Below are positions 29,367 through 55,949 of a DNA stretch of 64,000 nucleotides, piece by piece. Location: assembly GCA_016844945.1 (NCBI GenBank), contig JAERTJ010000151.1:1-64000 (forward strand), given 5' to 3'. Source of the stretch: Fidelibacterota bacterium (GTDB taxonomy: Bacteria > Fidelibacterota > UBA8477 > JABMPR01). How positions within the stretch are numbered: position 1 is the stretch's first letter; the number at the start of each line of letters is the position of its first letter. Made by a program: the position numbers and the translations under genes. A model generated the notes under the pieces. That model had not been told where the DNA came from and made no database searches. It saw nothing but the letters and a program-made list of their open reading frames with translations.

Positions 29367-29670
29367 ACCACAAAGACACGAAGGCACTAAGAAACACAAA
29401 AATAAAGTTTTTATGCTTTGTGTGTTGGTTATAAACAAACCATAAAACACAAAGATTCACAGTGACACAAAATTTTTTGTGTGAACTTTGTGTCTCGGTG
29501 ACTTGGTGGTAAAAGATGAAACTGAACCACAAAAGCACAAAGACCCGAAGCATCACAAACGAATTTCGTGCAATTTGTGTTTTAGTGACTTTGTGGTTGT
29601 ATGATTGAGAACGAACCACGAAGACACAAAGAAATTAGTGTCCTCAGTGCCTTCGAGACTTAGTGGTTAC
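29367..29670. repeat. Cluster of four imperfect hairpin repeats (ACCACAAAGACAC family)
   Basis: The 332-bp convergent gap 29351-29682 is almost filled by four self-complementary units: about 29367-29432, 29438-29512, 29525-29598 and 29614-29668. Each starts with a variant of ACCACAAAGACAC and ends with its inverted form, GTGTCTTTGTGGT-like. Examples: AACCACAAA (29525-29533) pairs with TTTGTGGTT (29590-29598), and ACACAAAA (29465-29472) with TTTTGTGT (29475-29482). Units differ in sequence and length, so this is not a CRISPR array. The same family recurs at 50986-51508 and 55777-55949. Confidence 0.85.
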
Positions 29671-50276: not shown

Positions 50277-50975
50277 ATGCCATTAATTCAAGTCACAGAC
50301 CTCTATAAAATTTACCAAATGGGTAATTCGGAGGTTCGCGCGCTGGATGGTGTCACAGTCTCCATTGAGCAAAATGAATATCTTTCCATTATGGGTCCAT
50401 CCGGGTCAGGAAAATCAACTCTAATGAACCTTTTAGGCTGTCTGGATACACCAACAAGTGGTGACTTTTTAATGGATGGAATCAACGTTGCCAGTATGAG
50501 TGACGATGAGTTAGCCCATATCAGAAATAAAAAAATTGGGTTTGTGTTCCAGACCTTCAATTTGCTTCCAAAATCAACCAGCCTTCGTAATGTTGAGTTA
50601 CCCCTCATTTATAATGGCGAGATCAAAGCAAAAGAACGCAAGGGCATGGCGATTAAAGCGCTTGAAAGAGTAAATCTGGGGGATCGCGTTGACCATAAAC
50701 CCAATGAACTCTCAGGAGGTCAAAGACAACGAGTCGCTGTTGCAAGGGCATTGGTTAATAACCCTGCCATCATCCTTGCTGATGAGCCGACCGGAAACCT
50801 GGATTCTAAAACCGGTGAAGAGATCATGTCACTCTTTGATGAACTCCACCGCCAGGGCAATACCATTATTTTGGTCACCCACGAGGAGCACATCGCCGAA
50901 CACGCCAACCGTGTGGTGAGACTCCTGGATGGAAAAATCGCCTCCGATGAACCCACATCCAGAGTAGGTAAATAG
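50277..50975 (+). CDS. MacB/LolD-type ABC ATPase
   Basis: 232 residues, the size of a stand-alone MacB/LolD ATPase. Walker [13 protein letters not shown] (near 39-50), Q-loop [11 protein letters not shown] (near 91-101), signature [15 protein letters not shown] (near 145-159), Walker [14 protein letters not shown] (near 165-177), and H-loop [10 protein letters not shown] (near 201). It powers the two FtsX-type permeases that follow, but those genes are now separated from it by a 0.5-kb GxxExxY unit. Its TAG stop overlaps the GTG at 50975 of that inserted gene. Confidence 0.93.
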
Positions 50976-51412
50976 TGCTTCTGGAAAACCACCAAGACAC
51001 AAAAACACAAAGGGGCACAAAGAAATTTGAGGCACTTTCAGAACAGCAAGAATTGATAGCACAAAAAATTGTGGATGCAGCATACACTGTGCATAAAAAT
51101 CTTGGACCTGGTCTGTTAGAAAAAGTGTATGAAGTCTGTTTCTGCCACGAGCTCAAGAAACGTGGATTGAAATTTGAAAATCAAACATTTTTCCCGATCA
51201 ACTATGATGGAATTGTCTTTCAAGAAGGGCTTCGGCTAGATGTATTGGTTGAAGATTCCATAATTTGTGAATTGAAAGCGGTTAATGAAGTTAACCAAGT
51301 TTGGAAAGCCCAGATTCTCAGTTATCTCAAGTTATTAGATAAAAGATTAGGTTTCATTATCAATTTCAATGTTCCAACCATCAACCAAGGGATAAAACGG
51401 ATAATCCTGTAA
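50975..51412 (+). CDS. GxxExxY protein, inserted in an ABC exporter operon
   Basis: 145 residues in the frame starting GTG 50975 (overlapping the ATPase stop); the true start may lie further in, for example TTG near 51053. The family motif is G46-x2-E49-x2-Y52 (GPGLLEKVYE). Family-conserved RLDVLVEDSIICELKAV (near 89-105) resembles a PD-(D/E)XK-like beta-strand pair with E and K, so a nuclease-like fold is conceivable. The first 18 residues (ENHQDTKTQRGTKK) are encoded by the flanking repeat itself. The gene sits between repeat copies in opposite orientation and splits the ATPase from its permeases. Function of the family is unknown; some genomes carry many copies. Confidence 0.8.
   Translation: MLLENHQDTKTQRGTKKFEALSEQQELIAQKIVDAAYTVHKNLGPGLLEKVYEVCFCHELKKRGLKFENQTFFPINYDGIVFQEGLRLDVLVEDSIICELKAVNEVNQVWKAQILSYLKLLDKRLGFIINFNVPTINQGIKRIIL
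50986..51026 (+). repeat. Left inverted-repeat arm of the GxxExxY unit
   Basis: AACCACCAAGACAC (from 50987) followed by further A/C-rich repeats CAAAAACACAAAGGGGCACAAAG. It is a copy of the left arm of the family seen at 29367 and 55876. It lies inside the reading frame of the GxxExxY gene. Confidence 0.8.
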
Positions 51413-51465
51413 ATGAAAATTTTAGAACCTAAATCAATAAACACAAATCTAGTTTGCTTTCAATT

Positions 51466-51508
51466 CACTTCTTTTGTGAATTTTAGTGCCTTAGTGGTTT
51501 CGTGGTTA
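51466..51508 (-). repeat. Right inverted-repeat arm of the GxxExxY unit
   Basis: TTTTGTGAATTTTAGTGCC, then TTAGTGGTTTCGTGGTTA (to 51508), the opposite-orientation counterpart of the left arm: read on the minus strand it begins TAACCACGAAACCACTAAGGC. It ends 14 bases before the permease start. Confidence 0.8.
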
Positions 51509-51521
51509 AAAGTATCCTGAT

Positions 51522-52742
51522 ATGAAAAGCTTCTTCTGGGAAAACTTGCGGATTGCTCTGGCAGAGTTGTGGGGTCATAAAACCCGTTCAATTCTGACAG
51601 GTACAGGAATTGTCATTGGAATCATTGCTGTATCTCTTATGTCCACGCTCATAAATGGTGTTGATGGGCTTTTTGAAGAAAGCATGAAATTCCTGGGGCG
51701 CGGGAACATCTATATCGAAAAATGGCCGTGGTTTGGAGATGAGGACTGGTGGACTTTAAGAAATCGACCACGTATCGACCTGGATATGGCAGATGATATC
51801 AAGGAGCGATCTGAATATGCCCTGGTCGTTGCGGCTGAGCGAGGACGTTCAGCCAATCTCAACTATAAAGAACTCTCGGCGGAAAATATCTTTATTCATG
51901 GTGTCAGCGCAAATTTTCCTGAAGTTTCCACAGTAGATGTCGAATTTGGTCGCTTCTTTACTGAGTCTGAGGATCGAACAGGTGCGCAGGTCGTCCTCCT
52001 GGGGTCCGAAGTAGCTAAGACGCTATTCCCTCAAGGGAATCCCGTTGATAAAATGATTTATGCCGGGTCAAAACGTTTTCGAGTCATTGGTGTTTTGGCT
52101 GAAATGGGGAAATTTATGGGTGCCTTTTCTCAGGATACCCAGGTCCTCATCCCTCTCGAAACCTTCAATAAAATTTTCCACGGTCCCTGGGGCATGCGTC
52201 GGATTACCGTCAAAGTCCCCGAGCATCTAGTTGAGGATGCCAAGGAGGAACTCCGCGGGGTTGTCCGGGTTCTGCGAGGTTTAAAACCTGAGGAAAAGGA
52301 CAATTTTGCCATCAATCAACAAAATGCATTCCGGCAAACGTATCAGGGAATTAAAATGGCAATTGGAGGGACCGGTTTAATCATTACCGCCCTCTCTCTT
52401 CTTGTGGGTGGAATCGGAATTGCCAACATCATGTTTGTCTCTGTCAAGGAGCGCACCCGTGAAATTGGTGTTCGTAAAGCACTGGGGGCAACACGAAACC
52501 AGATTCAAGGACAGTTTCTCATAGAAGCAATGGTCATCACAGCCTCTGGTGGGTTAGTGGGTCTCATTATTTCAACGGTTATCAGTATGGCTATCAGCGA
52601 ATTTCTTTTCCCGGCTAGTATGTCATTTGGTGTTGCTTTTATGGCAATTGGCTTGAGCGCCGGAGTAGGATTATTCGCTGGGCTTGCTCCTGCGAGAAAA
52701 GGTGCTAAACTTGATCCAATCGAAGCCCTGAGATACGAGTAA
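51522..52742 (+). CDS. MacB-type (FtsX-like) ABC permease 1
   Basis: 406 residues. One N-terminal helix at about 22-42 (ILTGTGIVIGIIAVSLMST), a large periplasmic MacB-type domain at about 50-270, then three C-terminal helices at about 285-310, 333-360 and 365-390. The FtsX cytoplasmic loop reads VKERTREIGVRKALGATRNQI (near 308-328, in part), the coupling motif of the family. It ends LDPIEALRYE, the usual tail. It lacks a fused ATPase, so it depends on the stand-alone ATPase upstream. The next permease starts five bases after the stop, suggesting that the two assemble as a heterodimer. Confidence 0.92.
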   Translation: MKSFFWENLRIALAELWGHKTRSILTGTGIVIGIIAVSLMSTLINGVDGLFEESMKFLGRGNIYIEKWPWFGDEDWWTLRNRPRIDLDMADDIKERSEYALVVAAERGRSANLNYKELSAENIFIHGVSANFPEVSTVDVEFGRFFTESEDRTGAQVVLLGSEVAKTLFPQGNPVDKMIYAGSKRFRVIGVLAEMGKFMGAFSQDTQVLIPLETFNKIFHGPWGMRRITVKVPEHLVEDAKEELRGVVRVLRGLKPEEKDNFAINQQNAFRQTYQGIKMAIGGTGLIITALSLLVGGIGIANIMFVSVKERTREIGVRKALGATRNQIQGQFLIEAMVITASGGLVGLIISTVISMAISEFLFPASMSFGVAFMAIGLSAGVGLFAGLAPARKGAKLDPIEALRYE

Positions 52743-52747
52743 ATCCT

Positions 52748-54004
52748 ATGTATATCCGCACATCACTAAAAACTCTCAACGATGCTTTTTTTATGGCACT
52801 GGAAGCCATCCGTGACAATCTATTGCGTTCAATATTAACCCTACTAGGAATCGTGATTGGTGTCTTTGCCATCATCGCAGTTATGACAGCTATTCGAACC
52901 CTGGAATCATCAATCAATTCAGGTTTAAACGTTTTTGGCTCTGATGTCATTTTTGTTCAGAAATCTCCTGTGATTCAGATGGGCGACCATAATAGTCGAC
53001 GGAAATATTGGCGACGCCCAAACATCACCTATGATATGGCTCTTGAATTAAGAGAGCGCATGGCCGGTGCTGTATTTGTGAGTGCTCAGGACGGTACAGG
53101 CGGTAAAACGATTCGTTTTAAAAAAGAATCCACCAATCCGAATGTCGGCGTACAGGGTGTGGATGAATATGGCCTTGAAGCACTCAACCACAGCCTGGAT
53201 TATGGCAGAAACTTTATTCCAGAAGATGTGGAATACGGTCGCCGCGTGGTACTCCTTGCAACAGATGTCATAGAAAAACTCTTCCCTTTTCAAGATCCTG
53301 TGGATCAAACGATTTCCATCAATGGTATTGGATTTGATGTCATAGGGACACTAAAACGTAAAGGCGAAATGTTCGGACAAAGTCAGGACAATTTTGTCAT
53401 CATACCCATCACGACTTATCTTCAATATTTTAGTCGACGCTGGACGTCATTGGGAATCTCTATCAAAGCACCCGATAGTGAGAGTTTCAACCTGGTCAAG
53501 GATGAGGTTGTTGATCAGATGCGCATTGTTCGAGGCTTGGGACCCACTGAAGAAAATGATTTTGAAGTCACTTCAAATGATGCCCTCATTGAGACCTTTG
53601 GCTCATTCACGGCTGGTATCAAGCTATTTGCCGGTGCTGTAAGTGTCATCGCTTTGGTAGTCGCTGGTATTGGAATTATGAATATCATGCTGGTATCCGT
53701 TAGCGAACGCATCAAGGAAATTGGTGTCCGAAAGGCTATTGGAGCAACGCGCAATAATGTTTTATTCCAATTCCTGCTGGAAGCCGTTTTCCTTTCACTC
53801 ATTGGTGGTGTCATCGGAGTTATGCTCGGCATAGGGGTAGGGAATATGATCACTCTGGTCATGAAGAATGTCGCGCCAGTGGTACCCATTGACTGGGTCT
53901 TTATCGGCTTGGGTGTTTGCTCATTTATCGGAATTGTGTTTGGGATTTACCCCGCCTACAAAGCAGCGGGACTTGACCCTATCGAATCCCTCCGACACGA
54001 ATAG
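52748..54004 (+). CDS. MacB-type (FtsX-like) ABC permease 2
   Basis: 418 residues, with the same architecture as the previous permease: N-terminal helix at about 27-48 (ILTLLGIVIGVFAIIAVMT), periplasmic domain at about 55-285, three C-terminal helices and the loop SERIKEIGVRKAIGATRNNV (near 318-337). It ends LDPIESLRHE. The periplasmic domains of the two permeases are only distantly similar, which supports a heterodimer rather than a recent duplication. It is the last gene of the long operon; a terminator follows at 54078. Confidence 0.92.
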   Translation: MYIRTSLKTLNDAFFMALEAIRDNLLRSILTLLGIVIGVFAIIAVMTAIRTLESSINSGLNVFGSDVIFVQKSPVIQMGDHNSRRKYWRRPNITYDMALELRERMAGAVFVSAQDGTGGKTIRFKKESTNPNVGVQGVDEYGLEALNHSLDYGRNFIPEDVEYGRRVVLLATDVIEKLFPFQDPVDQTISINGIGFDVIGTLKRKGEMFGQSQDNFVIIPITTYLQYFSRRWTSLGISIKAPDSESFNLVKDEVVDQMRIVRGLGPTEENDFEVTSNDALIETFGSFTAGIKLFAGAVSVIALVVAGIGIMNIMLVSVSERIKEIGVRKAIGATRNNVLFQFLLEAVFLSLIGGVIGVMLGIGVGNMITLVMKNVAPVVPIDWVFIGLGVCSFIGIVFGIYPAYKAAGLDPIESLRHE

Positions 54005-55776: not shown

Positions 55777-55949
55777 CACCACCAAGACTTCAAGACACTA
55801 AATCCACCAACTTTCTTAGTGATTGTCGTGGTTTTGAGTCTTAGTGGTAAACAGGTTTCTATCTCTACTCTCACCACCACAAAGACACTAAAACACAATA
55901 GTACACAAACTCTTTTCGTGGATTTAGTGCCTTTGTGTCTTTGTGGTTC
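55777..55949. repeat. Two hairpin repeats of the ACCACAAAGACAC family
   Basis: Two imperfect self-complementary units, about 55777-55849 and 55872-55949, in the divergent gap between proS and the next gene. In the second, ACCACAAAGACAC (55876-55888) pairs perfectly over 13 bp with GTGTCTTTGTGGT (55935-55947). In the first, CACCACCAAGACTT pairs imperfectly with GAGTCTTAGTGGT. The rest of the 423-bp gap 55667-56089 shows no gene. Confidence 0.85.

Follow-up and report, generated by a model that had tools for sequence, protein, structure and literature searches.

The window, as we call the whole 64,000-nucleotide stretch of DNA analysed here, contains an operon for a MacB-type ABC exporter, in which a gene of the GxxExxY family stands between the ATPase gene and the first permease gene (Table 1). 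The encoded protein exceeds the curated cut-off of TIGR04256 (35 bits) and the cut-off of PF13366 (22 bits), and only the PDDEXK_3 and GxxExxY profiles of Pfam and NCBIfam match it. The other genes of the operon are tightly packed: 8 nt separate the outer membrane factor from the fusion protein, 9 nt the fusion protein from the ATPase, and 5 nt the two permeases. The ATPase/permease 1 spacing, which holds the GxxExxY gene, is 546 nt, so the initial annotation was right to describe a gene that splits this operon. The GTG start codon of the gene overlaps the TAG stop codon of the ATPase gene (TAGTG), and the gene may thus be translationally coupled.

Table 1. Features of the GxxExxY unit, its host operon and the gene-free repeat copies in the window
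Feature	Position	Strand	Basis
Row of four gene-free copies, window word	29367..29668		Palindrome scores singly 16-23
MacB-type ABC ATPase, upstream host gene	50277..50975	+	PF00005
GxxExxY gene, PDDEXK_3 nuclease family, 145 aa	50975..51412	+	TIGR04256 141.3 bits, PF13366 133.3 bits, AlphaFold2
Left arm, inward-reading CACNAAG-type units	50986..51011	+	Inverted alignment to right arm
Right arm, opposite-facing	51473..51500	-	Inverted alignment to left arm
MacB/FtsX-type permease 1, downstream host gene	51522..52742	+	PF12704 + PF02687
MacB/FtsX-type permease 2	52748..54004	+	Profile match, operon comparison
Gene-free palindrome, window word (CACNAAG type)	55778..55848		Repeat search, palindrome alignment
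Gene-free palindrome, window word (CACNAAG type)	55876..55947		Repeat search, palindrome alignment

The gene is bounded by opposite-facing repeats, as had been noticed from the sequence. These two arms form a gapped inverted repeat with a score of 30, which was reached in 6 of 5,000 shuffles; an exact-seed repeat finder did not list the pair. The proposal that the repeat also occurs without a gene elsewhere in the window was borne out by two palindromes and a row of four copies, the palindromic alignments of which are weak when each is taken alone (scores 16-27). Genome-wide, ACCACNNAGNCAC has 20 exact matches, 8 of which fall inside the window, versus 16 for a reversed-pattern control, and this loose pattern is not enriched; the stricter CACNAAGNCACNAAG has 11 matches versus 1 in the control. 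Second copies of the exporter operon are present in the window's own assembly (G000, contig C197) and in genome G007 (contig C37), and their permeases are about 91-96% identical to those of the window. The second copy in the window's assembly is partial, and a strain mixture is likely. The genomes of the genus are draft assemblies.

The association between gene and arms extends far beyond the window. In the genus, 51 of 68 GxxExxY matches were used and 17 partial ones were dropped. A scan of public genomes with an alignment of seven proteins yielded at least 564 confirmed places, the best 80 of which constitute the wide set from other genera (79 scored) and lie in Bacteroidota, Ignavibacteria, Planctomycetota, Acidobacteriota, Proteobacteria, Cyanobacteria, Chloroflexi, Leptospiraceae and others, including one archaeal MAG with no arms at its GxxExxY locus. 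Matching inverted arms above the shuffle 99th percentile were found at 65 of the 79 wide loci versus 3 of 280 shifted controls, and at 29 of the 51 genus loci versus 3 of 121, with 14 wide and 22 genus loci failing the test. GxxExxY genes are thus strongly associated with arms, an enrichment that the initial annotation had suggested looking for.

The arm consists of an inward-reading row of a 7-nt unit, CRCNRAK, at both ends, and 70-75% of the spacings between successive units are 8-10 nt. Counts of this unit are partly circular because it was defined by eye on these very loci: per wide locus, there are 5.0 inward and 1.4 outward units, versus 0.5 in shuffled sequence, and at least two units in each arm are present at 55 of 79 wide and 39 of 51 genus loci. 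The inverted-repeat test is free of this circularity. Two other gene families of the same genomes served for comparison, namely small GIY-YIG genes (29 small loci among the 30 matches listed, one UvrC-sized frame having been dropped; 28 scored) and four-helix-bundle genes (30 loci of 75 matches taken; 29 scored), and none of the loci scored in either family has two or more CRCNRAK units in each arm. At loci L195, L204, L213, L221 and L225, all from other genera, a full palindrome is present at each end of the GxxExxY gene, and these double-palindrome loci resemble two gene-free units with a gene between them.

The initial annotation had assigned the gene to one repeat family. The gene does belong with a repeat, but each protein lineage has its own word; by eye, the protein clades of the genus carry CACAAAG, CACAGAT, CGCAGAG, ACGAA, CACGAAT and CGCGGAT, respectively. 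Across 131 loci, arm similarity correlates with protein identity (Mantel r 0.42, Spearman), a value reached in 0 of 500 permutations, and the right flank past the stop codon alone, available for 129 of these loci, gives r 0.33 versus a permutation maximum of 0.09. Among pairs with less than 50% protein identity, the correlation holds in the genus (reached in 1 of 500 permutations), and in the wide set it is weak (23 of 500). When genus loci were paired with loci of other genera, the arms were alignable in 71% of 80 pairs at 60-70% protein identity and in 2% of 1,695 pairs at 30-40%; the right flank alone was alignable in 40% of 80 pairs at 60-70% identity versus 1% of 1,778 pairs below 40%. 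Physical linkage alone would yield some of this correlation. The persistence of alignable non-coding arms at these protein distances argues for constraint or for transfer as a unit. The suggestion that the N-terminus is translated from the repeat stands as a possibility for the window gene, and only if the GTG start is used: 29 of the 131 loci could translate at least one left-arm unit, at 84 every unit precedes all possible starts, and 18 lack units altogether.

G46, E49, D89, E99, K101 and Q113 are invariant in the 51 aligned GxxExxY sequences and Y52 is nearly so; this invariant pattern (G-x-G, E, D, ExK, Q) is the active-site pattern of PD-(D/E)XK enzymes. Rpn/YhgA-like proteins also have the PD-(D/E)XK fold. 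Judged from a median dN/dS of 0.059 over 11 pairs, many of them with high dS, the GxxExxY protein is under purifying selection. The AlphaFold2 model of the window protein (pLDDT 92, pTM 0.82) is confident outside residues 1-20, the stretch possibly translated from the arm. Its fold matches are tRNA splicing endonuclease, lambda exonuclease and SSO0001, which we take to be a Cas4; none reaches E 0.001 or better, and they point weakly to PD-(D/E)XK-type enzymes. PADLOC yielded a Cas4 profile match (E 5.5e-4) and nothing beyond weak Cas4/Cas4b matches. The single candidate for a solved relative by sequence (E 0.046) was not credible. The possibility of a phage or plasmid cargo gene was also rejected, with 0 of 50,697 phage records and 7 of 72,556 plasmids matching at E 1e-5.

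A permease query matched all 18 other genomes of the genus that were searched (permease 1, 82-94% identical), and the operon was compared in 21 copies, including the second copies from G007 and the window's own genome. The ATPase/permease 1 junction, with the gap measured from the end of the ATPase alignment, is readable in 20 copies: 9 are short (17 nt or less), 3 contain a GxxExxY gene, 7 contain a small GIY-YIG gene, and the remaining one contains a 103-nt insert that lacks a small gene. One of the three GxxExxY proteins is 44% identical to that of the window, and its gene has another arm word. The permease 1/permease 2 junction, which is empty in the window and filled in some relatives, is also readable in 20 copies, comprising 10 short junctions (8 nt or less), 1 with GxxExxY, 4 with GIY-YIG, 2 with four-helix-bundle genes and 3 with gene-less inserts, one of which contains a run of N. 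Short empty junctions, which the initial annotation had proposed to seek in related operons, therefore exist within the genus. One junction contains a gene-bearing CACNAAG unit in G001 and a gene-free CACNAAG palindrome in G002, which suggests gene loss.

Inverted arms were also seen with the other two families that occupy these junctions. The small GIY-YIG genes in the same operon junctions lie mostly between TCATCCCGAGCGGAGTCGAGGGA-type inverted arms (L026, L027, L030, L031, L033, L035 and L038), and they frequently end in a stop codon that shares bases with the start codon of the following gene (ATGA). Across the genus, 7 of the 28 GIY-YIG loci scored exceed the arm-test threshold versus 1 of 96 controls. 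The arms of the four-helix-bundle genes (TIGR02436) are inverted rows of tandem 7-9 nt units, GTTTGGAAGTTTGG, AGTTAGAAGTTAG and AAAGTGAAAAGTG (L031, L131-L133, L114 and others in L112-L141), and 16 of 29 loci exceed the shuffle threshold versus 0 of 110 controls.

The GxxExxY genes of the genus are co-directional with both neighbours at all 49 callable loci (of 51), or 47 of 47 at a stricter ORF length, whereas 89 of 114 adjacent ORF pairs used as a control lie on one strand; in the wide set of 80, 44 of 62 or 46 of 64 callable loci are co-directional on both sides. The 49 callable genus loci represent 20 distinct sites, some of which, by eye, hold different lineages. A Pfam check of the neighbours at seven sites (ten proteins) identified unrelated housekeeping genes, namely icd/prpD, S49 peptidase/aconitase, citrate lyase, rpiB-deoC, SRP GTPase, adenine deaminase and recA. 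The icd/prpD junction, readable in 8 of 15 icd-bearing genomes, contains an insert in all 8 (6 full GxxExxY genes, 1 remnant and 1 gene-free insert), with at least three words and, by eye, some nested arms. The S49/aconitase junction, read in 14 genomes, contains GxxExxY in 6 (2 broken), a gene-free palindrome in 1 and the G001/G002-type MITE described below in 1; in five others the gap measures 57-97 nt and in some of these includes arm remnants, and G001 has a clean gap of 16 nt. At these two junctions (L317-L324 and L332-L345), units with different words are nested, and the GxxExxY genes are in some cases disrupted or partially deleted. The divergent proS intergenic gap contains gene-free palindromes in the window and in 5 of the 15 relatives read, of the CACNAAG type in the window, G011 and G016 and of the GIY-YIG type in G007, G008 and G014, and no gene-bearing unit was found there in the window or in these 15 relatives.

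The gene-repeat unit is real and broad, and its behaviour is likely mobile. That the nuclease would have a part in the movement, as the initial annotation had guessed, is a strong inference. The reading that we prefer, to which we assign about an even chance, is that the GxxExxY gene and its two arms constitute a one-gene mobile unit whose nuclease would recognise its own arms. What speaks for it is the joint occurrence of gene and arms in many phyla, the match between arm word and protein lineage, the presence or absence of units at operon junctions of one genus, the re-occupation and nesting by different lineages, and a protein that is under purifying selection and retains its active-site pattern. 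In this reading, several copies of the protein would attach to the 7-nt units repeated at either end, the nuclease would cut at or near the arms, and the unit would thereby be copied into a new junction. Gene-bearing copies would be retained between co-directional genes, where host transcription runs through them, and copies that lose the gene would persist as gene-free palindromes, such as those in the window.

It is rather unlikely, although this is the strongest of the alternatives, that the unit is passive cargo moved in trans by ordinary transposases in the manner of a MITE, with the nuclease having some other role, or none in movement. The evidence for this alternative comes from G001 and G002, where matches to the window-word pattern peak (158 and 193, respectively). 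In this expansion, CACNAAG arms are enclosed by outer terminal repeats (CCTGcATTATTCATG...) and by 4-bp duplications, and most of it is a MITE of approximately 174 nt: 21 of the 23 copies read (L262-L284) have the outer inverted repeat CCTGcATTATTCATGAATTATT with CACNAAG arms inside. Identical 4-bp flanks were seen by eye in 20 of 20 readable copies (19 YTAR and 1 TTAT), and a strict script recovered 12 of 14, the other two being mis-anchored; an ordinary transposase leaves duplications of this kind. This amplification therefore needs no GxxExxY. The argument from copy number that GxxExxY amplifies the gene-free copies was therefore dropped, because most copies in G001 and G002 are this MITE. 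Against the cargo explanation, the MITE outer repeats are absent from the window unit and from the 17 ACAACGAA palindromes read, and passive transport explains neither the purifying selection nor the fact that the arms follow protein lineage across phyla.

A consistent target-site duplication was looked for at 31 junctions, and none was general. At the window site, which was picked from these 31, the two flanks match each other as direct repeats at a level reached in 3 of 5,000 shuffles. Long target duplications, attractive by eye, were rejected as a general feature: of the 30 junctions for which flank scores are listed, only the window, G016 and G000b beat all 100 shuffles, and the matches in G016 and G000b lie in the insert's own repeat copies, so that only the window site remains. 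Strict co-occurrence of word and gene between the genomes of the genus was looked for and not found, which also speaks against the mobile unit that we prefer: CACRGAT has 14 matches in G016 and 8 in G008 without an intact gene of that lineage being seen, G002 has the word burst but no window-lineage gene was seen there, and a window-lineage gene is present in G003 with zero matches of the strict word. The MITE burst, the loci that fail the arm test, the weak correlation among wide pairs with less than 50% protein identity and the looser co-direction of the wide loci count against it too.

We regard as improbable a second alternative, in which a host-useful nuclease acting in repair or defence spreads by recombination into permissive operon junctions and the arms are binding or autoregulatory sites. 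Purifying selection and the weak Cas4 profile match are in line with it, as is the report, in the part of the source available to us, that Rpn nucleases, once studied as transposase-like, are anti-phage toxin-antitoxin systems (PMC10327210). However, PADLOC detected nothing further, single units are scattered in unrelated housekeeping operons, and the gene-free palindromes, nested units and repeated re-occupation of junctions look selfish. Least probable of the three is an RNA-level guest resembling the 23S rRNA intervening sequence (IVS), in which the arms pair into a stem within the operon messenger and bracket the ORF: the complete co-direction of the callable genus loci, that of 28 of 28 or 27 of 28 four-helix-bundle loci (by ORF length limit) and the Coxiella 23S IVS, described in the portion of the paper accessible to us as an RNase III-cleaved element with an S23/four-helix-bundle ORF between terminal inverted repeats (PMC4990558), are in its favour, but the wide loci include oppositely oriented neighbours, and selection on an RNA stem was not found in a wobble-asymmetry test (77 wobble-type versus 102 non-wobble transitions among arm mismatches at 67 wide loci and 28 versus 20 at 29 genus loci; no wobble excess overall).

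The one-gene mobile unit that we favour shares features with several known systems, which are compared here on the basis of the accessible parts of the papers cited. Similar to REP/RAYT (TnpA-REP), it is a chromosomal single gene with cognate palindromes that are also found gene-free (PMC8266576, PMC2817692, PMC3733652); the RAYT protein, however, is a Y1 HUH tyrosine transposase, whereas GxxExxY is a PD-(D/E)XK family nuclease, and the GxxExxY arms are arrays of 7-nt units that bracket the gene and change their word with protein lineage. The 23S rRNA IVS likewise lies within a host transcript and has a small ORF bracketed by terminal inverted repeats, and the four-helix-bundle family, which shares operon junctions with GxxExxY here, provides a link to it (PMC4990558). 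Unlike the IVS, GxxExxY is unrelated to the S23 protein, resides in protein-coding operons rather than 23S rRNA and has no sign of RNA-stem selection. Rpn/YhgA-like proteins are also a nuclease family discussed as recombination-promoting or transposase-like (PMC5350276, PMC10327210), but GxxExxY is a separate family. The short gene-free palindromes in many copies resemble MITEs moved in trans by IS transposases, and the G001/G002 subfamily is one; the gene-bearing units differ in that each has a nuclease gene of its own, and neither outer repeats nor clear 4-bp duplications were seen in them.

Among 5.39 million papers of the open literature, with subscription papers outside the search, two mention GxxExxY, both in passing, and next to nothing is said about it. 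With the same scope, the association of gene and repeat is undescribed among the titles and abstract starts listed for GIY-YIG, RAYT and PDDEXK with palindromes, and there was no match for PDDEXK_3 or for the four-helix bundle together with GIY-YIG. We tentatively raise the possibility, on which we lean towards doubt, of an unnamed general class of one-gene, repeat-bracketed operon guests, in which unrelated small proteins, namely GxxExxY, GIY-YIG and four-helix-bundle, would each recognise a separate arm code and would be competitors for the same stop/start junctions, the GxxExxY code being a tunable 7-nt array that diversified with the protein across phyla.

The GxxExxY units offer an origin for the short CACAAAG, CACAGAT and CGCAGAG intergenic palindromes and indicate that a small element can inhabit operons without breaking them. 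Because each lineage is paired with a specific DNA word, this orphan family is open to direct biochemical test.
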